Positions 2 through 16,775 of a DNA stretch of 39,576 nucleotides are shown one piece after another (positions within the stretch are counted from its first letter, which is position 1; each line of letters starts with the position of its first letter). The stretch comes from Deltaproteobacteria bacterium. GTDB lineage: Bacteria; Desulfobacterota; DSM-4660; Desulfatiglandales; HGW-15. The stretch covers positions 1-39,576 of the forward strand of contig JAFGGA010000202.1 in NCBI GenBank assembly GCA_016930835.1. The letters are read 5' to 3'. A program made the translations under genes and the position numbers. The notes under the pieces are model-generated. The model ran no database searches and was not told where the DNA came from. It saw nothing but the letters and a program-made list of their open reading frames with translations.

Positions 2-982
2 AGGCGGTTTTATATCACCGAAGGCGGTGGATATCATAAGGATTGTATCGAAATATTTGATGAGACCAATACCGGTGATCCGCAAGTCTTGGAAGAATTC
101 ATTCTATGGGGCATGGAGAGATATCCTGCTTTCCGTTATGCCCTGGTGATCTGGAATCATGGCGGTGGATGGTGGGACGAACCCGAGAGGGCAAAGCGAA
201 ACATCGCCTATGACGATTCCTTCGGTGGAGATTCTCTTGACAATCAGGAACTCAAGAATGTTCTTTCCAGGGTTTCTCAGAAAAGAGGAGACAAGATCGA
301 TATCCTGGGCATGGATGCCTGCCTCATGGCCATGGTGGAAGTAGCCTATCAACTCAGGGATTCGGTCAAGATCGCGGTTGGGTCGGAAGAAGAGGAGCCC
401 TTTGAAGGCTGGCCTTATGATCAAGTCTTGGAGATCCTCAAAAACAGACCCAGGCTCGGCACCGCTACTGTGGGCAGATACATCGCGAAAGAATACATCA
501 GTTCTTACCGAGAAAAAAGAGAGGACGTCACTCAATCGGTCCTCAACCTTTACAAGATCGACAATGTGGTTTTTCGGCTGGATGAGTTGTCTCAAGAACT
601 CATTATGAGTCTTGAAGATGAAGAGGTCTTGAAAGTTATCTTGTATGCACGTGAAAACAGTCCCGAGTTCTTCTACGGTAATTACATTGATCTTTACCGG
701 TTTGTCCAGCTGATTGGTAATGGATGCGATCGAGAAGTGATCAAGGAAAAGGCCGATAAACTCCTCATGTCATTGAAGCCGGGTACCAAGCAGGCCGTGA
801 TCTACCAACGTCACTTGGGGAGAAGACTAAAACACACCCATGGGTTATCCATCTGTTTCCCTCTATCAGAAGTAAATCCGAAATACTGTGACCTGGATTT
901 TTACCGGGATTGTAAATGGGGAGAGTTCCTGGAAAAGTATCTGATCTCTCGCAGAGAGTACGGAGTCGTAGAGTCTATCTGA
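2..982 (+). CDS. clostripain-like C11 family cysteine protease, 5' end cut by window edge
   Basis: The reading frame is open from base 2, so the start lies outside the window; an internal TTG at 89 is not the real start because the preceding residues already fit the family. The protein carries the C11/clostripain signature: the catalytic His in WNHGGG (about residue 53 of the visible part) and the catalytic Cys in MDACLM (about residue 107). Family members cleave after basic residues and are often self-processed and secreted; the localisation cannot be judged here because the N-terminus is missing. The stop is followed 18 bases later by a small membrane-protein gene, so the two probably form an operon. 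The family call is confident; the substrate is unknown. Confidence 0.85.
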   Translation, partial: RRFYITEGGGYHKDCIEIFDETNTGDPQVLEEFILWGMERYPAFRYALVIWNHGGGWWDEPERAKRNIAYDDSFGGDSLDNQELKNVLSRVSQKRGDKIDILGMDACLMAMVEVAYQLRDSVKIAVGSEEEEPFEGWPYDQVLEILKNRPRLGTATVGRYIAKEYISSYREKREDVTQSVLNLYKIDNVVFRLDELSQELIMSLEDEEVLKVILYARENSPEFFYGNYIDLYRFVQLIGNGCDREVIKEKADKLLMSLKPGTKQAVIYQRHLGRRLKHTHGLSICFPLSEVNPKYCDLDFYRDCKWGEFLEKYLISRREYGVVESI

Positions 983-1000
983 CAGGATTATAGGAGACCC

Positions 1001-1363
1001 ATGACGAACATCAATTTAGAAACATGCATCATTGAGATCAAGAAGGCCATTGCCCGTATTGAGGAGCAGACAAAGACCATATTCAAGGCCTTGGCCGAAA
1101 ACAAGGATTGGGCCGCGGAACTTCATAAGAAGCATTTCGACATTGAGGAAAAGCTCCGGTGTTCCATGGCGGAATTCAATGTGAGGCTCTCACAGCACGA
1201 CGTAGAGTTGAGATCTATGAAACGAACCATTCACAAGATTGGATTAAATCTTGAGAGACTATCGACATCGATCGCCAGGACCCGCGGAATAGCCATAGGA
1301 CTGGGCATGGCGGGAGGGGCCATCGTCTCTATCCTGACCATCGTGATTCAGTTTTTCAAATAA
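1001..1363 (+). CDS. small coiled-coil protein with C-terminal membrane anchor (XhlA-like)
   Basis: This 120-residue protein starts at an ATG behind AGGAGACCC. Residues 1-90 are charged and helical, with heptad-like spacing (IARIEEQTKTIF, VELRSMKRTIHKI). Residues about 95-117 form one hydrophobic segment (GIAIGLGMAGGAIVSILTIV) ending in QFFK. A soluble coiled coil with a tail anchor resembles phage/hemolysin XhlA-type proteins, but no diagnostic motif is present, so the name is only a likeness. It follows the C11 protease by 18 bases and is probably co-transcribed with it. It may tether or serve as a partner for the protease; this is inference from position only. Confidence 0.65.
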   Translation: MTNINLETCIIEIKKAIARIEEQTKTIFKALAENKDWAAELHKKHFDIEEKLRCSMAEFNVRLSQHDVELRSMKRTIHKIGLNLERLSTSIARTRGIAIGLGMAGGAIVSILTIVIQFFK

Positions 1364-1409
1364 TAAAATCGCTATGCGATTTTATAAAACGTCCCGTCTT
1401 GGACGGGAC
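1364..1409 (+). terminator. tandem hairpins after the C11 protease operon
   Basis: Immediately after the stop codon there is a 9-bp stem (1364-1372 with 1376-1384, loop TAT) whose 3' arm ends in TTTTA. A second perfect 8-bp stem follows (GTCCCGTC 1391-1398 with GACGGGAC 1402-1409, loop TTG). The first fits a weak Rho-independent terminator; the second lacks a T run. Confidence 0.5.
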
Positions 1410-1724
1410 TTGGAAAAGAGCAAATTTTAATGAATAGAGAGGGGCACTTCAGGTACGGAGTTTTTAGACAGGATGTACCGGATTCACAAGATGATAGAAG
1501 ATCGCTTTAAGCATGGGGAAAGCTGCCAAGGTAAAAATATACGAGCATATTTTTCCCATAACACTTTCTCCATGTGTCTCAATGTTTCCACATTGAGATG
1601 CCCCGCTCGCCGGGGACTTCAAGCGATCGATAGCATTCCTCTGATTTCCCTGAGTCTCAAGTGACCCTGAGCGAAGTCGAAGGGGAATGGGTGGTGAAAT
1701 TCAAGAGAAAGGAGGTGAGAAGAT
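1410..1724 (+). other. intergenic region before hup: hairpins and degenerate dispersed repeat
   Basis: No convincing gene is seen here. Bases 1450-1500 (GGAGTTTTTAGACAGGATGT onwards) are a diverged copy of the repeat found twice at 2142-2362. Two adjacent hairpins lie at 1577-1598 (TCTCAATG with CATTGAGA, loop TTTCCA) and 1601-1615 (CCCCG with CGGGG). Bases 1661-1683 contain the CTGAGCGAAGTCGAAGGGG sequence typical of dispersed intergenic repeats. The strong ribosome binding site AAAGGAGGTGA at about 1709-1719 belongs to hup. Confidence 0.45.
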
Positions 1725-2072
1725 ATGTCAAGCAGAGAAGAGTTGATTACCAAGTTTTCGAAAAAGGCCAATATCCCGAAGCGAAGTGCCGGTGATTACC
1801 TGGGTATTCTCTTGGAATTGATCAAGCAGGTTTTGATAAGGACCGGCACGGTTAAGATCCCGGGTTTCGGCTCATTCAAGGCAAAGGCTGTGGCGGAAAG
1901 GGACGGAATCAATCCTTTGACCGGGGAAAAGGTTACCTTTGCGCCGGGTGTCCGGATCGGATTCAAGGCTGGCAAGCCTTTGAAGGAAGGAATGATGAAG
2001 GGGACCTTCATCGCGAAGGCCAAGGCAAAAAAGGCTGAAGTGAAGAAAAAGCTCCCCAAGAAGAAAAAATAA
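1725..2072 (+). CDS. hup: HU-family DNA-binding protein with lysine-rich tail
   Basis: This is a 115-residue histone-like protein that bends and compacts DNA, normally as a dimer. Residues 1-92 match the HU/IHF fold: N-terminal helices (SSREELITKFSKKANI), then TVKIPGFGSFKAKAVAERDG and the arm motif INPLTGEKVTFAPG. Residues 93-115 are a lysine/alanine-rich tail (FIAKAKAKKAEVKKKLPKKK) absent from the roughly 90-residue E. coli HU and reminiscent of the basic tails of actinobacterial HupB and eukaryotic H1. The start is fixed by AAAGGAGGTGAGAAGAT before ATG. It is monocistronic, with a strong terminator 34 bases downstream. The HU assignment is firm; HU rather than IHF is chosen because no alpha/beta-specific feature is seen. 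Confidence 0.93.
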   Translation: MSSREELITKFSKKANIPKRSAGDYLGILLELIKQVLIRTGTVKIPGFGSFKAKAVAERDGINPLTGEKVTFAPGVRIGFKAGKPLKEGMMKGTFIAKAKAKKAEVKKKLPKKKK

Positions 2073-2106
2073 TCTTTCCCCTGGTGATGTTCCTCCTCAT
2101 CCCAGG

Positions 2107-2140
2107 AAGGGGGGAGATCGAATTTTCGGTTTCCCCCCTT
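2107..2140 (+). terminator. long hairpin terminator of hup
   Basis: A 14-bp stem (2107-2120 with 2127-2140, two G-T pairs) closes a 6-base loop AATTTT. The 3' arm ends in CCCCCCTTT followed by AATC. This is the most stable intergenic hairpin seen here and lies just after the HU stop codon. The trailing T run is short. Confidence 0.6.
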
Positions 2141-2141
2141 T

Positions 2142-2362
2142 AATCTCTCGCTCACTCCTTGCAGTTGTTAGAGTTCACTGAGGGCACGGAGGTTTTTAGA
2201 CTGGATGTACAGGATACACAGGATCTTTATTGTCAGGACGGATGCTATAATTATTTAAGAGAAATTGTAAAAAAATTAACTCTCGCTCACTCCCTACGGT
2301 CGTTAGAGTTCACTGAAGGCACAGAGGGTTTTCAGACCGGATATACAGAATTTTCAGGATAT
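2142..2362 (+). repeat. two direct copies of an ~80-bp intergenic repeat
   Basis: Copy 1 spans about 2142-2225 and copy 2 about 2280-2362. Both run CTCTCGCTCACTCC, then GTTAGAGTTCACTGA, GGCAC, GAGG, TTTTCAGAC/TTTTAGAC, GGAT and ACAG. A third, more diverged piece is at 1450-1500. An overlapping plus-strand reading frame (2159-2407) is made entirely of repeat and is not a gene. Confidence 0.6.
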
Positions 2363-2395
2363 CTCAAAATTCGCTTAAAAGCTTCCGCATTGCGG

Positions 2396-2480
2396 AGATC
2401 CCGATAAAAGATCGGGATCTAATATGAAGTGCCTGTGGTGATGACAACAAACTGGTTTATTTTCATACCCAGAGGCACTT
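2396..2480 (+). other. two inverted repeats between hup and the PLD-like gene
   Basis: A perfect 10-bp stem (AGATCCCGAT 2396-2405 with ATCGGGATCT 2411-2420) has a 5-base loop. A second inverted repeat pairs GAAGTGCCT (about 2425-2433) with AGGCACTTC (2472-2480) over a 38-base spacer. Function is unknown. The rest of the 2073-2614 gap holds the hup terminator and the repeats. Confidence 0.4.
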
Positions 2481-2614
2481 CTCATAAAGCTTTTAACGAA
2501 TTAAAGACAATCGATCTTTAGAGCTCTGTGGCCCTGCTTTCTCTGCGAGAAAAAAAATCACAAGGTGTTTTGATCATGTCAATCCTGTTAATCCCATCAA
2601 AAAAAGAGGTTACC

Positions 2615-3061
2615 ATGAAAGACCAACCACAAGTACTCTTCTCCCCTGAAGACAGGATCATCAGTTACATCATGGATGAATTTGATTCGGCGCTCAAATC
2701 CATTGACATCGTCGTCTTCCTTATCGGCTCAAAGACGGTGGCCAATGCCCTGGTCAAGGTCCGTAAAAAAGGCGTCGCCGTCAGGATGATCATCGACGCC
2801 AACGTAGCAAGGTCCAGGTATTCATATGACGAATTTCTTATAAAGAATGATATCGAGGTCAAGACTATCAAAGTAAGAGGCGGCTCCATGCACAGTAAAT
2901 TCATCCTGATAGATGGAGTAAAACTCATCGCCGGCAGCGCCAACCTCACGAACGATGCCAATTACAGGAATCATGAATTCATTTTCGTTACGGACGATCC
3001 AGCCCTCATCCAACCCTTCTCATCCAAGTTCGAAGAGCTCTGGTCCATAGGAAAATCATAA
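2615..3061 (+). CDS. phospholipase D-like domain protein, single HKD motif
   Basis: This 148-residue protein has one PLD catalytic motif, HSKFILID followed by GSANLT (about residues 92-109), as in Nuc-type nucleases and mitochondrial cardiolipin hydrolase, which build the active site from a dimer. The upstream part, with SALKSIDIVVFLIGSKTVAN and KKGVAVRMIIDAN, matches the PLDc_2 fold. The likely activity is phosphodiester cleavage of nucleic acid or phospholipid; the substrate cannot be told. I chose ATG 2615, behind AGAGGTTACC, over an in-frame GTG at 2528 because the 29 extra residues come from repeat-like DNA (TCAATCCTGTTAATCCCATC). No signal peptide is seen. It is isolated, with no same-strand partner within 5 kb. 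Confidence 0.85.
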   Translation: MKDQPQVLFSPEDRIISYIMDEFDSALKSIDIVVFLIGSKTVANALVKVRKKGVAVRMIIDANVARSRYSYDEFLIKNDIEVKTIKVRGGSMHSKFILIDGVKLIAGSANLTNDANYRNHEFIFVTDDPALIQPFSSKFEELWSIGKS

Positions 3062-5194: not shown

Positions 5195-5435
5195 ACTTAT
5201 GATTTGGACTATTTTAAAAATACGAAAGCTATATAAAATCTTATAAGAACCACTGAAGTGGAGTAATTTGCTGCATTCAATATCTATAATAGATCATTAA
5301 ACTAGTAAAAATGATAAGACAGCGCCAATAAAGCATATTTAGCCTATGATAGTCCAGGTTATTTAAAAAAAACAGGATAATGTCGTTAGAGGAGGGCCGC
5401 CCCCTGGATGGAGACGGCTTAGCCTGTCGAACGCC
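5195..5435 (-). repeat. ~230-bp direct repeat flanking the surface-protein module, copy A
   Basis: This copy matches 7358-7605 in order and orientation. Shared landmarks include CTTATAAGAACCACTGAAGT, TGCATTCAATATCTAT, TAGATCATTAAAC, GTAAAAATGATAAGAC, AATAAAGCATATTT, TTAGAGGAGGGCC, CCCCCTGGA and CGGCTTAGCCT. It contains small hairpins (CCACTGAAGTGG; ATCTATAATAGAT). It lies downstream of the YadA-head gene, while the other copy lies upstream of the lipoprotein gene, so the two genes are bracketed like a cassette. I see no gene in 5131-5485. Confidence 0.8.
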
Positions 5436-5485: not shown

Positions 5486-6721
5486 TTAGTTATCCTGCCA
5501 CAGGCCGCCGGCCGCCCAATCATAAACATCAGCAACATGACGATTATGGCCTCCGCTGACACTTCCGTCACTAGCAGTTGCCTCAACCGTGTTTCCATCA
5601 CCTCCACTAACGCTGGCGCTTACAGCAAGGGCGCTGTTAGTACTTCCTCCGCTGACGCTTGAGTAATAGCCACTTGCAATGTTAGCTATGCCTCCACTAA
5701 TGCTGGAAAGCCTGCCGCTGGCCGTATTCCCATATTCATTTGAAGTGTATCCGCCTCCGCTGACGCTTGACCAATTGCCGCTGGCTATATTGTTGCCGCC
5801 AGCACTGACACTTGAATAGGTTCCGCTAGCCGTGTTGTATTCTCCTCCGCTGACGCTGGACATATTTCCAAGGGCGCTGTTACGACTTCCGCCGCTTACA
5901 CTGGCATAGTGGCCGCTGGCAATGTTACCAGTGCCGCCGCTTACACTGGCATACTGGCCGCTTGCAATGTTACTTATGCCTCCGCCTACGCTGGAATTCG
6001 GACCGCTGGCATTGTTAGCGGCACCACCGTTTACACTGGCATACTGGCCGCTGGCAACGTTATCATAGCCTCCGCTTACGCTTGAACCGGGACTGCTAAC
6101 GGTATTTTGAGTTCCTGCCAGCAGCCCACCAGTACTTGAAAATTCATGAGATTGACCTATTACCAGGTTATGGGAACCACCACGACCGACAACTGGAGTA
6201 GTTCTCTCTTCGTTGTATCCTATTATCAAGTTGCCAAGGCCGAGTGGATTATTTCCATCATCGGTTTCGCCGGAGCCGCTTCGGATGTGAACATTAGCGC
6301 CTGTGAAAATCACATGGGGTCCGGCAAGACCATTAATCGTGTTGTTATCAATGCTCACATATGGCCCCAAGGGAACGAGGGGTTCTATCTGTGCCTGCAA
6401 ACTAGAAACATCTAACTCCAAAGTACTGATTTTGTTCTCTGCCATAGTTAGATTTGACTCCAAAGCACTGATTTTGTTCTCTGCCGTAGTTAGATTAGTT
6501 ATAAGACTTTGGACAGTCGCTTCTAGAGCAGCAATACGGCTGTCGTTGTCATTCACAGCTGTCCGGACAGCTGTGAAGTTGTCATTCACTTCAGCCGCCA
6601 CAGCCTTTGTATATGATGTAAATATGTGGGGTATGGTGACCGAGCCAGCCTGAGCAATTTCAATCGATATCATGAATGAAATGATTCCTATCAATGCAAT
6701 ACTTACTTTATATGATCTCAT
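5486..6721 (-). CDS. secreted YadA-head-repeat protein without membrane anchor
   Basis: This is a 411-residue exported protein. The signal peptide is residues 1-25, ending IAQAG. Residues about 35-115 form a coiled coil with repeated NKISALESNLTMAENKIS heptads. From about residue 195 there are around eleven 15-residue repeats of the YadA-head type (SVSGGxxNxASGxxS), each with a Gly-Gly turn, which in trimeric autotransporters stack as a left-handed beta-roll. The order of coiled coil and head is reversed relative to classic YadA, and the C-terminal beta-barrel anchor is absent: the protein ends GGLWQDN. It could be a secreted fibre or bind another surface protein. The ribosome binding site AAGGAGGG fixes the start. 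It lies 152 bases after a lipoprotein gene on the same strand. Confidence 0.75.
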   Translation of the reverse strand: MRSYKVSIALIGIISFMISIEIAQAGSVTIPHIFTSYTKAVAAEVNDNFTAVRTAVNDNDSRIAALEATVQSLITNLTTAENKISALESNLTMAENKISTLELDVSSLQAQIEPLVPLGPYVSIDNNTINGLAGPHVIFTGANVHIRSGSGETDDGNNPLGLGNLIIGYNEERTTPVVGRGGSHNLVIGQSHEFSSTGGLLAGTQNTVSSPGSSVSGGYDNVASGQYASVNGGAANNASGPNSSVGGGISNIASGQYASVSGGTGNIASGHYASVSGGSRNSALGNMSSVSGGEYNTASGTYSSVSAGGNNIASGNWSSVSGGGYTSNEYGNTASGRLSSISGGIANIASGYYSSVSGGSTNSALAVSASVSGGDGNTVEATASDGSVSGGHNRHVADVYDWAAGGLWQDN

Positions 6722-7357: not shown

Positions 7358-7605
7358 TAAGAAAGGAAATGGATCTTTTTAAAGGCACAAAGCTATATAG
7401 AAACTTATAAGAACCACTGAAGTGGAGTAATTAGCTGCATTCAATATCTATTATAGATCATTAAACGAGTAAAAATGATAAGACGAGGCAAATAAAGCAT
7501 ATTTTGCCGATGATAGTCAACATTTTTTATAGAAAATAGGATAAGATCTTCTTAGAGGAGGGCCTCCCCCTGGACGGGGTCGGCTTAGCCTATGGAACGG
7601 TGGTG
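7358..7605 (-). repeat. ~230-bp direct repeat flanking the surface-protein module, copy B
   Basis: This is the second copy of the 5195-5435 repeat. It runs directly into the hairpin series at 7566-7821, so its right end supplies the first hairpin (CCCCCTGGACGGGG). In copy A that series is cut short after the second element (CCTGTCGAACG). Confidence 0.8.
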
Positions 7606-7821
7606 GGTCGGGCAAGCCCCTGAACGGGTCTTGCTTGCGAACTTATTGGGAGTCGGGACTGGACGGCCCTCCTTGAAGTAGTGCATGGCCTCGTTGCTGC
7701 AGCACCGGTCTGAACGACCGGCGCTGAGAAACTCAATTGGTTGTTCAAGTTCTCTTTACGCCTTCGCTCCGCCGCTGAACGTCGTCTCCGCCTCCGGCGT
7801 CGGCTTCCTGAACGGAAGCCG
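7566..7821 (+). ncRNA. candidate structured RNA: tandem hairpins with TGAAC/TGGAC loops
   Basis: Successive stem-loops carry nearly the same 5-base loop: TGGAC at 7571-7575 (CCCC/GGGG); TGAAC at 7621-7625 (GCAAGCCCC with GGGTCTTGC, one mismatch); TGGAC at 7660-7664 in an imperfect stem; TGAAC at 7711-7715 (CCGGTC/GACCGG plus outer AGC/GCT); TGAAC at 7809-7813 (CGGCTTCC/GGAAGCCG, perfect 8 bp). Weaker elements lie at 7593 (TGGAAC) and 7776 (TGAAC). The stems differ in sequence while the loop is kept, which points to a conserved structure or protein-binding loop. Strand is not certain, and no known RNA family is recognised. Confidence 0.4.
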
Positions 7822-7825
7822 CAAA

Positions 7826-8180
7826 TACGTCGTAGCGCCACGTCCCCTGCTTCTAATCAGCCCAGTCCCCTAACATGCTCCGCCTTATGCAAGGTCTATG
7901 TCGTCCAACGTTTTTCCCCATTATCCCTACGCTCCGGCCAAAAAACAAGTCGCTGTCCAGTAAAAAATCGGTTCCCCCCAAAAAAAGAACAGTCCCACAA
8001 AACAGTATAATCCAATAGGAATCATCCAAAAATGAAGGGAATCCCCAAGTTCTTTTTTCGGGTACCCCCCAATTTTTTGCTGTCCATCAACTCCTCCGCT
8101 TTGCTCCGGCCCTTCGGGTGCTTTTTGACCTCCACTCCGGGTTGTTCAAAATAAAACGTTTTTTCTTTTGAAAGGAGGTG
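7826..8180 (+). other. long leader region upstream of the adenine-poor SLOG gene
   Basis: About 350 bases without a convincing gene. It is marked by homopolymer runs (CCCCCCAAAAAAAGAAC near 7976, CCCCCCAATTTTTTGC near 8066) and CTCCGCTTTGCTCCGG-type sequence at 8094-8110. A possible sigma-70 promoter is TTGACC at about 8127-8132 with an A/T-rich stretch 17-18 bases later (AAAATAAAAC). The perfect ribosome binding site AAAGGAGGTG at 8171-8180 sets the start of the next gene. Confidence 0.35.
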
Positions 8181-8186
8181 TTGGTT

Positions 8187-8807
8187 ATGTCTCATGTCGC
8201 TGTTGTCGGTTCTCGCGTCCTTCCTGCCTCGTGGGCTGCCCGCGTGGATTCGGTGGTCGGTTCTCTCCTTGCCCGTGGTCTTTTCATTGGGTCGGGTGGT
8301 GCTGTGGGTGCTGATCTGTTCGCCCTTCGTTCCCTGGTCCGTCGTGGTCAGCCAGCCTGTTCGGGTTCCGTGGTCTTCCTTCCCAGGGTGCTCGGTTCCG
8401 CTCCTTGTTCCTGTGTGTCCTGGCTCTCCCGTTTCGTTCGTCTCGGCGGCCGTGTTGTTGCGGGCCCTGCCTCTGGCAGTGCCTCCCGCCGGGATTTTGT
8501 TTCAGCCCTCTTTGCCCGTTCCCGTTCCCTGGTTTCGGGGTCGGTGGGCGTGGTGGCCTTTGTGTCCGGTCGTTCAGCCGGGTCCTGGTTTTCGGTCTCC
8601 GTCGCTGCAGGGCTTGGTCTGCCCATTGTGGTCTTCCCGGTTGAGGGGCCCCGTGCCCTCCGGTCCCTGGGTGCCGGGCGCTGGGTTCGGCTCCGCTGCT
8701 GGGCCGGCGCCTTTCGCTGGGTTCCGGCTCGGGCCGATAAAACCCGGTGCATTCACGGTCTCATCGGGTCTTTCTGCTCCATTTGCGTGAAAGGGGGTCG
8801 CTCATGA
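8187..8807 (+). CDS. SLOG/DprA-like Rossmann-fold protein with extreme adenine depletion
   Basis: A 206-residue protein. VAVVGSR (4-10) and GSGGAVGAD (35-43) are the nucleotide-binding motifs of the SLOG superfamily (DprA/Smf, YspA, LOG-like), whose members bind nucleotides or single-stranded DNA. A later AFVSGRSAGSW segment and GLPIVVFPVEG fit the same fold. The C-terminus has Cys188, His190, Cys197 and Cys200, a possible zinc knuckle. The start is ATG 8187 behind AAAGGAGGTG; an in-frame GTG at 8178 lies inside that site. The coding strand is almost free of A (13 in 480 bases over 8221-8700 by hand count), so the protein has only two Lys and few Asn, Glu, Thr or Tyr, and other frames lack stops. 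It overlaps the next gene by ATGA. Confidence 0.75.
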   Translation: MSHVAVVGSRVLPASWAARVDSVVGSLLARGLFIGSGGAVGADLFALRSLVRRGQPACSGSVVFLPRVLGSAPCSCVSWLSRFVRLGGRVVAGPASGSASRRDFVSALFARSRSLVSGSVGVVAFVSGRSAGSWFSVSVAAGLGLPIVVFPVEGPRALRSLGAGRWVRLRCWAGAFRWVPARADKTRCIHGLIGSFCSICVKGGRS

Positions 8808-9817
8808 AAACACAATCTGATCTGAATCTGTCATTTTATGAAATTAAGTCTTTCGCTGATCCTCAAACAGGGGATCGCATCAGAAAGGAGGCTTTTATGA
8901 ATCACGAGTCAGCGTTATTTATTCACGACAACCGGTTATGGATGGAGGTTTGCAAAGAAAACGGATGGCCTGTCGATGACGAGGTCATTGACTACGGTGA
9001 GAGTTTTGAGGGCATGGCCAGGCACGTGTCCGCGATGTCGGGCCTCGAACGGATCATCTTTGAGGATTGCGACTTCGTGGCCGGAAAGGTCACGGCCCCT
9101 CATATGAATCTGAAGGCATATCCTCACTGGCTTTGTCCGGAGTATATCGCGAAGAAAACCGGGTGCGGTCTCAAGGACGCCTCGGATCTTGTGGAATGCT
9201 GGGTGGTGCTGGATCCCACATGGAAGATGGTCGAATGCTTCATATCATGGGTTGCATCAAAAGGAATAGATAAGGCTCTGCCTTATTTCGAGAGGTTGGC
9301 CATGGCCCTGGCCGAGGTGGAAAACATCGATGTGGATGACGTGACGGAGAGTGAAGAACCGCAATACACGGGCCAGGATCTCTACGCCTATCATCCGGTC
9401 GGAGAATATCCGGATGATGATTGCACTACCTGGGTTGAGAGGCAGCCTTCATGGTACCAGGAACTCATTCGCAAGGTGAAAGAATGCAATGACCTGGACC
9501 AGGTCAGCGCATTGGGGAAGGAGGTCTATGAACGGGACCTCAATCAATATCAGGCCGGCGTCTTCTGGACCGAGTACAATATCGTGAAAAGGAGGATTGA
9601 GGACGGGATCAAACTCGGTCCTGTCAGCCGGTCTTTTATTCAACGGATCGCAAAGGCCAACGGCAACCTGGCGTCTCTGGGCGCATGGCTCTACAAGGTG
9701 CAACAGGGTCTGGTCAAGATCTCCAACCCTCCTTCAAGACACGAATGGACCGTGATCTGGAAGTCGTACCAACAACACAAAATGGGTCACGATTCAAATC
9801 AACTTTCCCTTTATTGA
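8804..9817 (+). CDS. 337-residue hypothetical protein coupled to the SLOG gene
   Basis: The ATG overlaps the SLOG stop (ATGA) and has AAAGGGGG upstream, giving 337 residues. A second in-frame ATG at 8897 has a textbook site, AGAAAGGAGGCTTTT, and would give 306 residues; both starts may be used. No family is recognised. The protein is acidic and soluble, with many tryptophans (ECWVVLDPTWKMVECFISWV), an Asp/Glu-rich centre (VENIDVDDVTESEEP) and a basic, aromatic C-terminal third (VFWTEYNIVKRRI, SLGAWLYKVQQG, WTVIWKSYQQHKMG). Base composition returns to normal exactly at its start. Tight coupling with the SLOG gene suggests a joint function on the mobile element; nothing in the sequence shows which. 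Confidence 0.65.
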   Translation: MKTQSDLNLSFYEIKSFADPQTGDRIRKEAFMNHESALFIHDNRLWMEVCKENGWPVDDEVIDYGESFEGMARHVSAMSGLERIIFEDCDFVAGKVTAPHMNLKAYPHWLCPEYIAKKTGCGLKDASDLVECWVVLDPTWKMVECFISWVASKGIDKALPYFERLAMALAEVENIDVDDVTESEEPQYTGQDLYAYHPVGEYPDDDCTTWVERQPSWYQELIRKVKECNDLDQVSALGKEVYERDLNQYQAGVFWTEYNIVKRRIEDGIKLGPVSRSFIQRIAKANGNLASLGAWLYKVQQGLVKISNPPSRHEWTVIWKSYQQHKMGHDSNQLSLY

Positions 9818-10145: not shown

Positions 10146-10199
10146 CTGTCATTCAAAGTGAAAGTATTACAAACCTTAAACCAACAAGGAGGATTCATT

Positions 10200-10565
10200 A
10201 TGAACCAGGTGAATATCATTGGAAGACTCGGTGGGGACGTGGAACTCAGATATACGCCGAGCAGCAAGGCGGTTTCCAGGATGTCGGTGGCCGTGAATGA
10301 ACGGTATGGACAAAACGAGAGGGTCTACTGGTTTCCGGTGATCTGCTGGAGCGGCCTGGCCGAGACGGTGAGCAGCTATCTTCACAAGGGAAGCCGTGTG
10401 GCCGTTTCCGGAAGGTTGACCACCCGCTCCTATGAAACCGATGACGGCAGCAGGACGGTTACGGAGATCGTGGCCAATTCAGTGTACTTTCTGGATCCAA
10501 AGCCCGCGAACCAGGAGCCGAAGGTTGAAGAATCGTCCATCCCTGACGATGATATCCCGTTTTAA
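10200..10565 (+). CDS. ssb: single-stranded DNA-binding protein
   Basis: A 121-residue SSB that coats single-stranded DNA in replication and recombination. The OB fold is clear: MNQVNIIGRLGGDVELRYTP, then AVNERYGQNERVYWFPVICW, GSRVAVSGRLTTRSYETDDG and VTEIVANSVYFLD. The C-terminus ends in the acidic tip DDDIPF that recruits partner enzymes. The Gly/Gln-rich linker between them is only about 18 residues, making it shorter than chromosomal SSBs (about 150-180) and typical of mobile-element copies. AAGGAGG before ATG 10200 sets the start; an earlier GTG/ATG frame lacks support. With the SLOG and ComF-like genes nearby, a role in handling incoming or excised element DNA is plausible but inferred. 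Confidence 0.95.
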   Translation: MNQVNIIGRLGGDVELRYTPSSKAVSRMSVAVNERYGQNERVYWFPVICWSGLAETVSSYLHKGSRVAVSGRLTTRSYETDDGSRTVTEIVANSVYFLDPKPANQEPKVEESSIPDDDIPF

Positions 10566-10584: not shown

Positions 10585-10625
10585 GAGGTCAGGGATCCAA
10601 CCTGACTTCAGACTGTTGACGTCTG
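10585..10625 (+). other. two hairpins in the ssb downstream spacer
   Basis: GAGGTCAGG (10585-10593) pairs with CCTGACTTC (10601-10609, one G-T pair). An overlapping CAGAC (10609-10613) pairs with GTCTG (10621-10625). The two stems share a base and could be alternatives. There is no T run, so they may attenuate or stabilise rather than terminate. Confidence 0.35.
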
Positions 10626-10648
10626 ATCTCCGTATAAGGAAGGAGGTA

Positions 10649-11200
10649 ATGAACTTGGGCTATACACCGGAACTGACCGATTATCATTCGGCTACATTGA
10701 GGAGGATCGCCTGGGCCCTCGGCAGGCCAATGACGAAGACTCTCGAAGTCATTTTCGATAATCTGGATCTGATCATCGATCCGGAAAAGGTCTGCGACAA
10801 GTGCAAAGATAATACCTTGTGTCCCAGGTGTTATTTGAACACAAGGGGACGCATCTACGAAGACTTGTCCCTTGATTCCATTAAGATCGAACCTGTCGGC
10901 ATTCAAGACGGGCTCACTATTTCCAGGGAGGTTGAGATGAAAGTCAATCAGGTGAGCGTCCTGGTCTCCAAAAAGATCGGGAGAAATTTTTCTTCATGGA
11001 GTTTGAGTTACGGCGCCACGGCGGACGTGGAGGAGGAGCATTACACCGAGGCAATATCGCAACTGGATACACAATTGCGCGAGATGTTATCCACTGCCCT
11101 GCCCACGCCCAACGGTAACGGCAACGGGAACGGCCATAAGACGCCCAACGGTTCCGCGCCTGAAGGCATGGGAAATGACTCGCCCCGTTTACTGGAATGA
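10649..11200 (+). CDS. hypothetical protein with CxxC zinc-ribbon-like motif and Gly/Asn-rich linker
   Basis: A 183-residue protein starting at ATG 10649 behind AAGGAAGGAGGTA. Residues about 1-40 (YTPELTDYHSATLRRIAWAL) are helical; residues about 50-63 contain CDKCKDNTLCPRC, a four-cysteine motif fit for one zinc ion. Residues about 95-150 (VEMKVNQVSVLVSKKIGRNF, then SSWSLSYGATADVEEE) look like a compact alpha/beta domain. The C-terminus is a low-complexity tail of NGNGNGNGHKTPNGS. A zinc-binding nucleic-acid protein is a reasonable guess, because it directly follows ssb and lies on the same strand. No named family is recognised. Confidence 0.6.
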   Translation: MNLGYTPELTDYHSATLRRIAWALGRPMTKTLEVIFDNLDLIIDPEKVCDKCKDNTLCPRCYLNTRGRIYEDLSLDSIKIEPVGIQDGLTISREVEMKVNQVSVLVSKKIGRNFSSWSLSYGATADVEEEHYTEAISQLDTQLREMLSTALPTPNGNGNGNGHKTPNGSAPEGMGNDSPRLLE

Positions 11201-11246: not shown

Positions 11247-11882
11247 ATGATCGCCCCGAATATGCTTTCTTTGGCCGGGGACATGGCCCATGTTCCGATA
11301 CGATCCATGATCCATGTGTTTCCGGCCCAAGCGCAAAGACAATGCCTGATACCCGAAGGCATGGAGAAGATAATCCTTCGCCATCACAAGGGGGCCTTTA
11401 TGGGGTGTTTTTCCCTTCGTCTTAAAAGGAACATCAACTGGGATCTCTTCAAACAATGGAAGACGAACCGTAATCCCTTGGTCACCGACAGGATGGCAAG
11501 GGATTTTCTCCCTTTCCTCCAAACTACCGGCGGACAAGTCATCCGGAATCACTACGATTGCATTACAGCGGCGCCGCCATCCGGCCGGAGGTGTCCATTG
11601 CGTTATTGCGTATATGACCTTGCAAGATCCATATCCGGAATGACGGGTATTCCATTTATCCCGGCCTTTGCCCAAAAAACAGACAAGATGAATCACGGCC
11701 GCTTCGCCAGCATGGAGCAGTCGAAACCGCAGCCCCTGAAATCCTGGGATGTCCGAAACCAGTCCATCCTCTTCGTGGATGATTGCATCACTTCGGGCAC
11801 GACGGCCAGGTTGTGTTACGAGTCGCTCGTGGCTTCAGGGAATCATGTGGACGGCCTGATATGGGTGAGCGCCGGAGGCTGA
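11247..11882 (+). CDS. ComF-like phosphoribosyltransferase-domain protein
   Basis: A 211-residue protein whose C-terminal half has the type I phosphoribosyltransferase PRPP-binding loop: SILFVDDCITSGTTARL (about 172-188), preceded by strand-like YDCITAAPPSGRRCPLRYCV and DLARSISGMTGIPF. This layout matches ComF/GntX-type proteins. ComF is required for natural transformation in many bacteria, where it works with DprA; the four-cysteine N-terminal zinc finger of classic ComF is not seen. The start is ATG behind GAAAGGGAAACATC. It is 46 bases after the CxxC gene in the same orientation, and a 7-bp hairpin follows its stop (TGGGAAC/GTTCCCA, 11901-11920). Catalytic activity is not assured. Confidence 0.7.
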   Translation: MIAPNMLSLAGDMAHVPIRSMIHVFPAQAQRQCLIPEGMEKIILRHHKGAFMGCFSLRLKRNINWDLFKQWKTNRNPLVTDRMARDFLPFLQTTGGQVIRNHYDCITAAPPSGRRCPLRYCVYDLARSISGMTGIPFIPAFAQKTDKMNHGRFASMEQSKPQPLKSWDVRNQSILFVDDCITSGTTARLCYESLVASGNHVDGLIWVSAGG

Positions 11883-12214: not shown

Positions 12215-12577
12215 TTGAACGCATTGACGACGGAAAAAGAGAGTTCTATATTGACCCTTGAGGAGGCCGCCTCGTATCTTCATAAGAGTAAAAGTTGGGT
12301 TTACAAAAATTGGAAGATACTCGGCGGTGTGAAGCTCAGGGGTTCTTTGTTTTTTCCAAAAAAGGAGGAACTCTATGAGCACATATTTCACCAAGGGAAA
12401 GGGATGGAAATACGACTTCATCCTGAAAGGAACCCGGTACACGCGAACCGGGTTCAAGACAAAAACAGAGGCAAGACAGGCCGAAGCAAAAAGAAGGGAG
12501 GAGATAAAGAATCCGAAAAAGGAGACGGCGATCCCAACAGACATGGCCTTCTTGGAATTGTTGAACAAAAGGCTTGA
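12215..12577 (+). CDS. excisionase-like HTH protein overlapping the integrase gene
   Basis: The first 55 residues form an HTH_17-type domain (LTLEEAASYLHKSKSWVYKN, then GGVKLRGSLFFPKKEELYEH) typical of recombination directionality factors coded just before tyrosine integrases. The start is uncertain: TTG 12215 has only a weak upstream GCGAAG, and a TTG at 12224 is possible. The frame continues for 203 bases into the integrase gene, adding a basic tail (GKTGRSKKKGGDKES). The integrase ribosome binding site AAAAAAGGAGG is inside this frame. The HTH part is convincing; the tail may be real overlapping coding or may be shorter in nature. Confidence 0.6.
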   Translation: MNALTTEKESSILTLEEAASYLHKSKSWVYKNWKILGGVKLRGSLFFPKKEELYEHIFHQGKGMEIRLHPERNPVHANRVQDKNRGKTGRSKKKGGDKESEKGDGDPNRHGLLGIVEQKA

Positions 12578-13466
12578 TTATATCAAGGCATACCATTCCG
12601 AGAGACATTACAGGGATCATATCTATTATGGCCGAAGATGGCTGAAACAATGGCAGGGGCTCCGATGCACCGAGATTCTCGCGACCATGATTGAATCTTA
12701 TCTGATTAAAAGGGCGAATCAGACATCCGCTTACACGGCGAATAAGGAACTGCGATGCCTCAGGGCCATGTTCAACTTCGGCATGGAACCGCCGAGAAGT
12801 TGGATCTTTGAAAACCCGACCAGGGGCATTAAGTTTCTGCCGGTGGAAAAGCGGATAAAATATGTCCCGCCCAAGGAAGATATTTTAAGGGTTATCATGG
12901 CGGCGGATCCGGACACCCGGGATTATTTGTGGACCATCACCCTCACCATGGGAAGGGTAAGCGAGATCAATCGGATTACGTGGCAGGATGTGAATTTCGA
13001 TGAACGGTACGTGGTTCTTTCTACCCGAAAGAAATTGGGAGGACACCTGACGCCCAGAAAGATTCCGATGTCCGATAAACTGCACCAGGTCCTTTCCCGG
13101 AGATTCGCGGCGAGGGACAAGAGAAAACCGTGGGTTTTCTGGCATCGTTACTGGGACCGCAAAAAGGGCGAATGGTCCGAAGGCCCTTACAAGGATAGAA
13201 AACGATTCATGAAGACACTCTGCAAAAAAGCCGATGTCCGGTATTTTCGTTTTCATGCCTTCAGGCATTTCGGGGCTTCACTCATGGATCGAGCGCTTAC
13301 GCCTATCGGGGCGATCCAGCGCATACTCGGTCATGAGAACAGGACAACGACCGAGATCTATCTGCATTCCATAGGAGAGGCGGAACGCGAGGCAATGAGG
13401 ATCTTCGATGATGAGATGGGAGAAAATCCACATACCAATCCACATACCAAAACAAAAAGGACTTAA
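12375..13466 (+). CDS. int: tyrosine recombinase (site-specific integrase)
   Basis: A 363-residue tyrosine integrase. Residues 1-45 are a basic arm-binding region (TGFKTKTEARQAEAKRREEI); 55-150 form the SAM-like core-binding domain; 165-350 are catalytic. Catalytic residues are Arg194 (MGRVSEI), His294 and Arg297 in HAFRH, His320 in ILGH and the nucleophile Tyr329 (EIYLHSI). All are present, so it is probably active. The start is ATG behind AAAAAAGGAGGAACTCT. It lies against the 3' end of tRNA-Arg with only 29 bases between, the classical arrangement for an element inserted in a tRNA gene. It also overlaps the HTH gene upstream. Element DNA should extend leftwards from here. Confidence 0.93.
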   Translation: MSTYFTKGKGWKYDFILKGTRYTRTGFKTKTEARQAEAKRREEIKNPKKETAIPTDMAFLELLNKRLDYIKAYHSERHYRDHIYYGRRWLKQWQGLRCTEILATMIESYLIKRANQTSAYTANKELRCLRAMFNFGMEPPRSWIFENPTRGIKFLPVEKRIKYVPPKEDILRVIMAADPDTRDYLWTITLTMGRVSEINRITWQDVNFDERYVVLSTRKKLGGHLTPRKIPMSDKLHQVLSRRFAARDKRKPWVFWHRYWDRKKGEWSEGPYKDRKRFMKTLCKKADVRYFRFHAFRHFGASLMDRALTPIGAIQRILGHENRTTTEIYLHSIGEAEREAMRIFDDEMGENPHTNPHTKTKRT

Positions 13467-13495: not shown

Positions 13496-13572
13496 TGGCG
13501 CGCCTGGGAAGATTCGAACCCCCGACCTGCGGATTAGAAGTCCGCTGCTCTATCCAACTGAGCTACAGGCGC
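13496..13572 (-). tRNA. tRNA-Arg (anticodon TCT)
   Basis: Read on the minus strand the gene gives a full cloverleaf. The acceptor arms are GCGCCTG and CAGGCGC with discriminator G and an encoded CCA. The D-arm is in TAGCTCAGTTGGATAGAGCA. The anticodon stem GCGGA/TCCGC closes the loop CTTCTAA, giving TCT. The T-loop is GGTTCGAATC. It reads AGA codons. Its 3' end faces the integrase, and it is the likely attachment site of the element on the left. Confidence 0.97.
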
Positions 13573-13616: not shown

Positions 13617-15038
13617 TCAAAAAAATGATTTAATCCGTGATAGCATTTGGAAGGGTCTTTCATCGATGGGTGTGTGAGGAATGGGATGATGCAAGCCATC
13701 GCCCCCGTTCTTTCCATGATTACCGTTGAGCACCTGATGAAGGAGAAAATTGGTGTTTCTCTCCAATTGGTTCATTGTTTCGGCAAGGGCCTTCAATTGG
13801 ATGAGGGTCTTTCGCGAACGCTCACGGGATGGAATGTCCAGGTTGGGATTATTCAGGATATCGATTAATCGATCAAGAAAATGGGGATTAAAGCTTTCCA
13901 AATTAGAATAGATAATATCCACCCATTCCCGCGTCAAATCGTTCGGCATCCTATGATAGTTCGATATAATGTTCTGGTCCTGACCGAACTGAAGGGATTG
14001 CTTTAATCGAGCGATCTCCTGCCATATCCTAAAACGCCTTGATTCATATTGGGGATATTGAGAAATGACATCATCCCATCTCCCCTCTATCTGCATATGT
14101 ATCCATCTGTTGCCTTGCTCGGGAGTCAAAGAGAGATCTAAAAATTTGTTTTGAATATCTTTTAGATTTTTTTTAACACCTTCGTCCACATCCCAAAGGT
14201 CCATCACCAGGTTGTTTAACACGTCAATGCATGTTTTTTTTAGACTTTCCTCTTCACACTCTTGTAGCAAAACCTTTTCCCATTGATCCCGTAAATACCC
14301 GATCTCTTGTTTCATGAGAGAAAAAATAAGACCTGATTTTGTAATGGCATTTCTTAAAGAATCGGCAAGAATATCACAGGCGTTGAGCCTGTCCTGCGCC
14401 AATTGTTGCATGGCCTTCATGGAGTTATGCTGTAAATGGTATGATAAAAGTTGAGTCCCCAACGATCGGGAAAGCCTTTTAATAATACGGGTTTCTTGAC
14501 TTCCGATTTTTATGGTATAGGGTTGAAAATGGATCTTGATGACCGCCACTACCACATAGTCGGTATCTGTCCAGATGCGTTGCCCATCATAGGTGGACGG
14601 GTATTCAAAGGCGGAATACATGTTGAGGTTCAGGTCGGATTTTCGGGCGAGTACCGGCTCCATATGCTGAAAATCCTCAACTCCCGCGTCCAGTTGCAGA
14701 CGTACGCTTCGGATATCATTCGCAGGATCTTCAGCCGTCCAGCTTTTCTGTTTCTCAACACACCAGGCCATCGCCTCCAAAGGTCTACCGGGTTCATCTC
14801 TATAGTCCTGCCAGGGTCGGCCCGGCGGATTGTATTCAGACTGGGCCGGCAATTCCCATGTGATTTTTTTACGATCTTCCGAAACAATCCCTGATGTAAT
14901 CCTCTCGACAACCAGATCAGGCGGTTTTCCAACGCGATAGATCGTACCTTTGAATGCATTGGGAAGGCATAGAATGATCGTTTCAATCATCTCCAGACAT
15001 GCCTTTTTTAATGCATGTTCCTCAATCTCAATAAACAA
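13617..15038 (-). CDS. 473-residue hypothetical cytosolic protein
   Basis: I do not recognise a named family. The N-terminal third (about 1-200) is alpha/beta, with many tryptophans (ITWELPAQSEYNPPGRPWQD, then RIWTDTDYVVVAVIKIHF). The rest is mostly helical with long amphipathic helices (SMKAMQQLAQDRLNACDILA, then SLRNAITKSGLIFSLMKQEI), resembling a dimerisation bundle. The central DILADSLRNA segment has no histidine, so it is not a kinase H-box. No signal peptide or membrane segment is seen. It is the first gene right of the tRNA, transcribed in the same direction as it, and divergent from the PAC2 gene. The start at 15038 is the first ATG; the ribosome binding site is weak. Confidence 0.6.
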   Translation of the reverse strand: MFIEIEEHALKKACLEMIETIILCLPNAFKGTIYRVGKPPDLVVERITSGIVSEDRKKITWELPAQSEYNPPGRPWQDYRDEPGRPLEAMAWCVEKQKSWTAEDPANDIRSVRLQLDAGVEDFQHMEPVLARKSDLNLNMYSAFEYPSTYDGQRIWTDTDYVVVAVIKIHFQPYTIKIGSQETRIIKRLSRSLGTQLLSYHLQHNSMKAMQQLAQDRLNACDILADSLRNAITKSGLIFSLMKQEIGYLRDQWEKVLLQECEEESLKKTCIDVLNNLVMDLWDVDEGVKKNLKDIQNKFLDLSLTPEQGNRWIHMQIEGRWDDVISQYPQYESRRFRIWQEIARLKQSLQFGQDQNIISNYHRMPNDLTREWVDIIYSNLESFNPHFLDRLIDILNNPNLDIPSRERSRKTLIQLKALAETMNQLERNTNFLLHQVLNGNHGKNGGDGLHHPIPHTPIDERPFQMLSRIKSFF

Positions 15039-15163
15039 CCGGAAGCCCCCTAGTGAAAATAAAAAAAACTGGAAAAATATGGACTTTTAAGGGATGATAA
15101 TTTAGGCTTTTTTCATTTTTTGTCAATACAAAAATAGCTGAACCATTCCGCGGTAAGTTTCAA

Positions 15164-16027
15164 ATGACCAAAACGCAGGACATTACCATATTTCAAGAGA
15201 TCCCGTCATTGAATAATGCCCTGATGATCATGGGGCTGGATGGATGGGGGAATGCACTCAACATCTCCCGCGGGATGATAGAATTCCTTATCCAAAGACT
15301 GGATGCTGAACCATTCGGGGAAATAAGCGCTGATGCCTTTTATAAGTTGGACGATGTTCGCCCTATCGTGGATATTCAGGATGGCATTTTAAAACGGCTT
15401 GAGCCTCCAGGGGGACATTTCTACTTCGTTAGACAAGCATCTTCCGGACGTGATCTTGTTCTGCTCAACACGACCGAACCGAACTTTCACTGGTTTCAAT
15501 TCTCTGATTCCGTTTTATCGCTTTGCCGCCAAATCGACGTTCAAACCATTATCAGTCTTGGGAGCATGTATGACAACGTACTCCATACAGACACCCTTAT
15601 TTCGGCTGTCGCATCCGATACGGAAATACTGGAGGAATTGAACAAGCAGAACGTCATCTCCATCGATTATCAGGGTCCAACAGCTATTCATTCCACTTTA
15701 CACACCGAGGCCGTTAAAAAAGGTTTTCGGTCTATATGCCTATGGTGCCATTGCCCCCATTATCTTCAAGGGACAATGCACTTCGGCCTTTTGTCCTATT
15801 TGGGATCATTTTTGGCGTCTTTGGGGGGATTTCACCTGGACATAAAAGAATTGGAAATCGCATGGAAGGATCTTAATCAACAAATTCAAAATATCATTGA
15901 TAAAAATCCTGAGCTTCAAAACATGATCCATGAAATACGGAAGGCAAAGGTCAGAGGATCATGGGATATGAGCGGGAAAAAGCAGGATAAGATTATCCAG
16001 CTAGAGGATTATTTGAAACCTAGGTAG
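15164..16027 (+). CDS. PAC2 family protein
   Basis: A 287-residue member of the PAC2 family (proteasome assembly chaperone 2-like fold), which in bacteria and archaea is of unknown function and has a phosphorylase-like alpha/beta fold. Recognisable segments are NNALMIMGLDGWGNALNISR near the N-terminus, DLVLLNTTEPNFHW, the core IISLGSMYDNVLHTD, and FGLLSYLGSFLASLGG near residue 205, followed by a helical tail. The start ATG 15164 has only a weak GGTAAG upstream. Its last eight bases overlap the end of the convergent sirtuin gene, so the transcripts run into each other. Confidence 0.8.
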   Translation: MTKTQDITIFQEIPSLNNALMIMGLDGWGNALNISRGMIEFLIQRLDAEPFGEISADAFYKLDDVRPIVDIQDGILKRLEPPGGHFYFVRQASSGRDLVLLNTTEPNFHWFQFSDSVLSLCRQIDVQTIISLGSMYDNVLHTDTLISAVASDTEILEELNKQNVISIDYQGPTAIHSTLHTEAVKKGFRSICLWCHCPHYLQGTMHFGLLSYLGSFLASLGGFHLDIKELEIAWKDLNQQIQNIIDKNPELQNMIHEIRKAKVRGSWDMSGKKQDKIIQLEDYLKPR

Positions 16028-16775
16028 CTGTTTGGATCATCTCCTTTAACCCAACCACCAAATCCGGAATAATGGTCCCCGCCTCTCCTTGGATGAAGAC
16101 ATCCGTTATATGCCCCGTTAAGTGCGTCTCCTCTTTATTGATCTCAATGACCTTCGCGCCATTTTGTTTGGCTATGATGGGAATCTGGTTGGCGGGTGAA
16201 ACCACCGCCGATGTCCCTACGATCATCAAGGCCTGGGCTGATCGTGCAAGTTGAAAGGAGCGGTTAAGGGCCTCTTGAGGGATGGCCTCCCCGAAGAAGA
16301 TGACATCGGGTTTCAGGATCATTCCGCATCGACACTTCGCCGGATATTCCCCTTTTTTTTCCAAGGCCGTATATCGGCTGCCGCACCCAAAACATGACAA
16401 GGTACTGGAATTGCCATGATATTCAATCACATTTTTTGCTCCACCGGCTTGATGAAGATTATCCACATTTTGGGTGATAATATAATGAAGAAATCCCATC
16501 CTTTCCAACTCACCCATACCCAAATGAGCCCTGTTCGGCTTGGCGTTCGCCACCAAATCATCCATGTCCCTGAGCATCCGCCATACCTTTTCAGGATCTG
16601 ATCGAAAGGCATCAATGGTGGCGTATTCAGAAGGGTCATACTTTGACCAAAGTCCGCCGGCGCTCCTAAAATCAGGTATCCCTGACTCTACGGATATGCC
16701 CGCGCCCGTGAGGGCGATGGTGGATTTCGATTCAAAAAGGATCTGCGCGGCTTTTTTGATTATGTCAATTGTCAT
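16020..16775 (-). CDS. cobB: Sir2-family NAD-dependent protein deacylase
   Basis: A 251-residue sirtuin that removes acyl groups from lysines using NAD. The NAD-binding motif GAGIS (24-28) is followed by SGIPDFRS; TQNVD (101-105) and the catalytic His120 in EYHGN are intact. The zinc site is Cys128, Cys131, Cys148 and Cys150. IVGTSAVVSPANQ is the conserved C-terminal Rossmann segment. I chose ATG 16775, behind AAGGGATCTATGT, since upstream codons to 16814 lack a ribosome binding site. The downstream end overlaps the PAC2 gene tail to tail. Sirtuins of this type regulate acyl-CoA synthetases; the partner here is not visible. Confidence 0.93.
   Translation of the reverse strand: MTIDIIKKAAQILFESKSTIALTGAGISVESGIPDFRSAGGLWSKYDPSEYATIDAFRSDPEKVWRMLRDMDDLVANAKPNRAHLGMGELERMGFLHYIITQNVDNLHQAGGAKNVIEYHGNSSTLSCFGCGSRYTALEKKGEYPAKCRCGMILKPDVIFFGEAIPQEALNRSFQLARSAQALMIVGTSAVVSPANQIPIIAKQNGAKVIEINKEETHLTGHITDVFIQGEAGTIIPDLVVGLKEMIQTAT

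Follow-up and report, generated by a model that had tools for sequence, protein, structure and literature searches.

The SLOG gene at positions 8187 to 8807 (plus strand) of the window, by which we mean the whole 39,576-nucleotide stretch of DNA analysed, is almost devoid of adenine in its coding strand. In this copy and in its sister from a genome of the same order (G057) the exclusion of A acts on the nucleic acid, is strand-specific, is bounded by the SLOG domain and is maintained, and it is weaker in the other copies of the family. A recount of positions 8221-8700 gives 13 A, 153 C, 161 G and 153 T in 480 bases, exactly the 13 A reported by the first-pass annotation, and a scan of the whole window bears out that this is not near the flanking value, the next-lowest non-overlapping stretch of 480 bases containing 88 A. 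Chance is excluded as the source of the depletion (binomial P of about 5e-47 with p = 0.27, assuming independent bases). The maximal A-poor segment (8195..8736, plus strand; 13 A in 542 bases) ends with the SLOG domain, at FRWVP. The gene had been taken to end at 8740; the ORF actually reaches 8807, and its CxHx7CxxC-like C-terminal tail (8737..8804, plus strand) is normal in A (13 A in 68 bases). Thus, while the next gene, whose ATG at 8804 overlaps the SLOG stop codon, is indeed of normal composition as had been noted, the return does not coincide with its first codon but occurs at the end of the SLOG domain, within the last 22 codons of the SLOG ORF.

The depletion affects every codon position, as first described, with 4.5, 4.5 and 2.5% A at positions 1, 2 and 3 as compared to 30.5, 32.7 and 22.0% in the neighbouring genes. 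Accordingly, the protein described as nearly free of Lys has none at all in residues 1-183, where 8 residues (4.4%) have codons that all need A, as against 42-49% in the neighbours and the host DprA. The absence of out-of-frame stops is a by-product of the depletion, since no stop codon is without A and the complement of each has T. The host genome contains six A-free 90-mers, as many as the two 92-nucleotide runs in the window SLOG gene would account for by themselves with three windows each; a scan of 395 genomes found such runs in 202, those listed being largely GC-rich or repetitive, and is uninformative beyond the host.

The frame is functional, as had been proposed from its motifs. The intact ORF encodes 206 amino acids from an ATG start, is preceded by a strong ribosome site (GAAAGGAGG at 8170) and shows codon-position differences (.24/.14/.49) typical for a protein gene. 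Its match to PF02481 (DNA_processg_A; E 8.6e-7, 28.8 bits) lies just below the curated Pfam cut-off of 29.6, which four homologues pass (43.6, 35.6, 33.8 and 31.6 bits). An AlphaFold model (mean pLDDT 80) has the Rossmann-type SLOG fold with the conserved motifs GSR and GSGGA.GAD, and its best Foldseek matches are the DprA structures 5mll, 4ljk and 3maj (E of about 1e-6), with the ShosA structure 8zva as third fold match (E of about 1e-6). Judged by predicted model and motifs, then, the window gene encodes a SLOG protein of the DprA/ShosA fold, which probably handles single-stranded DNA. It is not DprA proper: TIGR00732, the NCBIfam dprA equivalog, scores 21.7 bits against a cut-off of 191.15, and the host has a separate, normal dprA.

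The locus is an integrative element with its integrase at a tRNA gene. Downstream of SLOG, all on the plus strand, lie gene X (8804..9817; 337 amino acids, no known family, normal composition), which lies close to SLOG at almost every locus and whose predicted model (pLDDT 56) is too poor for a fold search; an SSB gene (10158..10565; PF00436, E 1.3e-28) that is kept in the module; gene Y (10616..11200; no family), kept in the element; a ComF-like phosphoribosyltransferase (PRTase) gene (11247..11882) with weak matches to ShosT, PsyrT and PRTase_III-A; an excisionase-like HTH_17 ORF recognized by Pfam (12215..12577); and a tyrosine integrase gene (12375..13466; PF00589, E 6.7e-22). The integrase gene adjoins tRNA-Arg(tct) (13496..13572, minus strand), the likely integration site; a search for an attL repeat of at least 12 bases found none. 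A Pfam scan of the element genes found no reverse transcriptase. The conserved module is SLOG-X-SSB, to which a Rad52-type annealase and a PD-(D/E)XK nuclease are added in Methylomirabilota, and an AAA protein and Y-like genes instead in other relatives. Beside the element, genes for a clostripain-family (C11) protease, a small membrane-anchored-looking protein, an HU-like protein and a PLD-family (DrmC-like) nuclease occur in both extreme genomes (window 89-3061; L007, the G057 locus, 13659-16482), and their identical order suggests that they are probably element cargo. Just past this shared cargo, G057 encodes an N6-adenine DNA methyltransferase/restriction-like protein (L007 17162-19933; MmeI, N6_Mtase and mad2-like matches). 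The window also encodes, on the minus strand (5486-6721), a repetitive SGG..N.ASG.YSSVSGG protein of the YadA-head/beta-roll kind.

The non-coding sequence upstream of SLOG has features of its own. A sigma-70-like promoter match (8125..8152, plus strand; TTGACC-16-CAAAAT) agrees with the consensus only. Some 0.4-0.6 kb upstream of SLOG lies a conserved non-coding, hairpin-like array of six CTGRACG-loop units (7558..7830, plus strand), several of them within perfect stems; all six units recur in G057 (L007 11028-11286, minus strand) and three in a remnant element (L090 4120-4237). The array has no Rfam match and is a candidate for a structured RNA or an element-end DNA signal. A 29-base motif, CTCCGCTTTGCTCCGGCCCTTCGGGTGCT, at window positions 8092-8120 recurs with 86-93% identity in elements of another phylum (L030 6691-6719, L028 7256-7284, L027 3693-3721). 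Between Methylomirabilota elements, about 390-430 nucleotides immediately upstream of SLOG, non-coding as far as seen, are 69-76% conserved (L024 3900-4290, L025, L031, L027). Finally, a direct duplication of 222 bases with 85% identity (window 5212-5433 and 7377-7600) includes the first hairpin unit and is possibly the scar of an earlier insertion.

The depletion is a property of the family and is graded in strength. The SLOG protein of G057 is 73% identical to that of the window, and over 528 bases each the SLOG parts contain 9 A (1.7%) and 14 A (2.7%), respectively. Together with eleven further copies from Desulfobacterota and Methylomirabilota these make 13 copies in two phyla, and in every one the SLOG part contains less A than the sequence around it, at 4-7% in most of the other copies and 11% in both copies of G369. 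This graded conservation answers the question of homologues raised at the outset, and it excludes both drift confined to the window copy and a long stay in a single unusual host, each of which had been considered in the first-pass annotation. The family is rare: there is one further copy among 98 relatives, one further genome (with two copies) among 395 sampled in the phylum, and 8 of 95 genomes carry it in the phylum of the Methylomirabilis locus, and carriers found in addition are Desulfoferrobacter suflitae and one Methylomirabilis MAG. A phage or plasmid origin is rejected, as searches of phages, plasmids and viral contigs gave no SLOG match. A decayed SLOG copy was sought too, and the sole remnant (G057, C32) contains gene Y and PRTase fragments and no SLOG. 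The tract has sharp borders, the start codon on one side and the domain end on the other; in Methylomirabilota, which have SLOG and gene X fused into a single ORF, the A content goes up inside that ORF, at the domain junction.

Is the composition simply that of an unusual protein? If the SLOG domain were selected to be without charged and amide residues and thus rich in Ala, Gly, Val, Ser and Arg, A-poor codons would follow. Indeed, residues that require A make up 4-5% in the extreme pair and 10-19% in the other copies, i.e. 4-19% in 13 of 13 copies, compared to 31-49% in host DprA and neighbouring proteins, and in the most GC-rich copies A at third positions is not clearly lower than in the module neighbours. 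However, with the protein held fixed and the codon usage of the module genes as expectation, synonymous A is strongly depleted in the window (z -7.8) and in G057 (z -8.8). The same measure is lowered in five more copies (z -4.1 in G463, -4.1 in G495, -3.0 in G498, -2.8 in G554 and -2.5 in G546a), and reveals no significant depletion in G369, G522 and G490. Codon choice is shifted as well: the ratio of AGY to TCN codons for Ser is 1:28 in the window, 0:29 in G057, 1:28 in G463 and 0:21 in G498, far from the module neighbours, and for Arg the ratio of AGR to CGN codons is 1:22 and 0:23 in SLOG, the latter in G057, versus 64:38 in its module neighbours. We therefore consider a cause at the level of the protein unlikely overall; it is largely refuted for the extreme copies and may account for part of the weak ones. 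The exclusion of A involves both nucleotides and protein.

Several further explanations fail on composition alone. Codon bias for high expression is rejected with 28% A at four-fold sites in the ribosomal genes of G000, a foreign origin of high GC content with T still at 31% where A is at 4%, and a general trait of SLOG genes with the normal composition of dprA in the same hosts.

The exclusion is also not an inherited relic in the extreme pair. About half of the four-fold sites shared by the window and G057 differ, and the composition-corrected silent identity is 0.20 for SLOG, similar to the.14-.20 of X, SSB and PRTase and the.28 of Y. Despite this near saturation, A occupies just 2-3% of four-fold sites in each copy, which means that the exclusion is renewed continuously. 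C, G and T interchange freely at silent sites and A alone is kept out. Dual coding in another frame is rejected since four-fold divergence is the same as in the neighbours, and so is conserved RNA structure (MFE z -1.3 and -0.4 versus synonymous shuffles); as the silent sites are otherwise free, there is neither a hidden second reading frame nor a conserved RNA fold. The constraint is compositional and not a motif.

But what renews it? The first-pass annotation suggested both mRNA selection and a strand-biased mutation targeting A, and the data at hand do not fully separate the two. A strand-specific mutational process at the tract, acting on an exposed coding strand or through damage by a PRTase of the genotoxic type, might turn A into other bases, with selection keeping only the A that the protein needs. 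That all codon positions are affected about equally and that the silent composition of the extreme pair resembles the background minus A both accord with such a process, and there is a precedent in RqlH, a PRTase toxin that a DprA-like protein keeps in check and that raises the mutation rate (PMC4670107). The sharp borders described above, even within fused ORFs, argue against it. Simple deamination (A to G, C to T) moreover misfits the extreme pair, in which A is replaced by a roughly background mix with extra T, slightly less G (third-position z -1.8 and -2.6) and unchanged C. Silent divergence is not above that of the neighbours in five pairs, a weak test for hypermutation given that a rare base adds little flux. 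We regard this mutational origin as a possibility to be taken seriously, though not a probable one.

From these data we infer purifying selection rather than mutation against A in the coding strand or its transcript. Our preferred proposal, quite plausible to us though short of probable, is that purifying selection holds the coding strand or mRNA nearly A-free because each A is a liability under A-directed attack. A working SLOG/DprA-like gene of an integrative element would then be needed at just the time when an A-directed activity hits messages or their decoding. The attacker might be an RNase that cuts at adenosine and belongs to a defence or toxin system (Csx1/Csm6 type, or a ribosome-dependent toxin), an activity directed at tRNAs with U in the anticodon, or a product made by the element's own PRTase. 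Csx1 cleaves after adenosine (PMC7192623), and there are toxin RNases with A-rich cut sites (PMC11042736). The PRTase comes under suspicion because DprA-like proteins act as antitoxins of PRTase toxins in ShosTA and RqlHI, and such pairs constitute antiphage or toxin-antitoxin systems (PMC9122126, PMC4670107). More specifically, the gene may have evolved to be near A-free so as to stay expressed while adenosine-directed attack shuts down others, with its own PRTase possibly involved; this version we hold to be doubtful. What speaks against a simple escape from shut-off is that the window ORF closes with 22 codons of normal A content and that SLOG in Methylomirabilota is fused to a half of normal composition, so that a full-length product would still need codons with A. 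The link to the PRTase is weakened by its absence from the weaker relatives: among the 12 genomes searched it is present in two, the carriers of the extreme SLOG gene only, and since these two copies are sisters in the tree the association amounts to one event. Nor was any nuclease that acts on A identified in the element. The host ribosomal genes and dprA show no avoidance of A, which speaks for the proposal.

Selection could instead act through decoding, if codons read by anticodons containing U are avoided so that translation continues while such tRNAs are cleaved by Cas13a-like or other anticodon nucleases. In favour of this, U is the anticodon base that pairs with A of a codon, the depletion extends to each of the three codon positions, the slightly low third-position G of the extreme pair would fit, and Cas13a does cut tRNAs with U-rich anticodons (PMC11042736). 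Yet the tail or the fused half requires A codons here as well. In many genomes U34 tRNAs also read G-ending codons, and these are still common in the gene, which makes this route highly improbable in our view.

The other copies add a further complication. Their silent C falls while G and T rise, and the weaker copies lose silent C more than A, which counts against selection on A as such. Lineages vary in the detail of their silent sites, and what they share is a shortage of A relative to T and of A+C; at four-fold sites A+C is lower than in the module genes at 13 of 13 testable loci (p 3e-2 to 9e-7). This would suit a function of the DNA itself, in which a G+T-rich, A-poor single strand is kept as a tract where the module's recombination proteins (SLOG, SSB, Rad52-type) load or pair. 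RecA is known to prefer GT, and the module is a recombination module. The extreme copies, however, retain background C and exclude A alone, and the placement of such a tract in a coding region would be left unexplained. We rate this possibility as improbable.

How does the gene compare with known systems? With DprA/Smf (PF02481) it shares the Rossmann-type SLOG fold, but it covers only the Rossmann part (profile positions 45-189 of 212), and its composition is extreme whereas that of the host's own dprA is normal. The SLOG protein thus belongs to a known kind. In the literature searched, which is far from complete, we found no precedent for a gene family that keeps one base out of its coding strand. 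The order SLOG-X-SSB-Rad52-PDDEXK in SLOG relatives recalls the single-strand annealing modules of integrative elements, composed of SSB, a Rad52-type annealase and a PD-(D/E)XK exonuclease; the window element has SSB and Y and no recognised Rad52 or exonuclease. With regard to the A-directed mutagenesis of diversity-generating retroelements, the silent changes in SLOG are ordinary interchanges of C, G and T. ShosTA and PsyrTA (RqlHI) combine a DprA-like gene and a PRTase gene in one element, as do the window and G057. The matches of the window element in PADLOC are weak, with no PADLOC cut-off to judge them by, its SLOG and PRTase genes lie about 2.4 kb apart with X, SSB and Y between them, and the PRTase is missing from the other SLOG copies. 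Known pairs of this type make the PRTase the first suspect, but a ShosTA-like pairing with SLOG would rest here on weak profile matches, on genes that are not neighbours and on an association that counts as a single evolutionary event. That one gene keeps a single base off one of its strands across saturated silent divergence points to a base-specific attacker or a base-specific mutator, for which the module and the PRTase provide concrete suspects. Identifying the cause would bring to light either a new route by which messages evade shut-off or a new process of targeted mutation. A parallel in principle may be mRNAs that are poor in toxin cleavage sites, such as those without ACA for MazF. 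The window gene differs in that it excludes a whole base rather than a motif, with no enzyme identified; common to both is the idea of a message escaping an RNase by its composition, and if this were true of the SLOG gene it would represent immunity through the base composition of the message.
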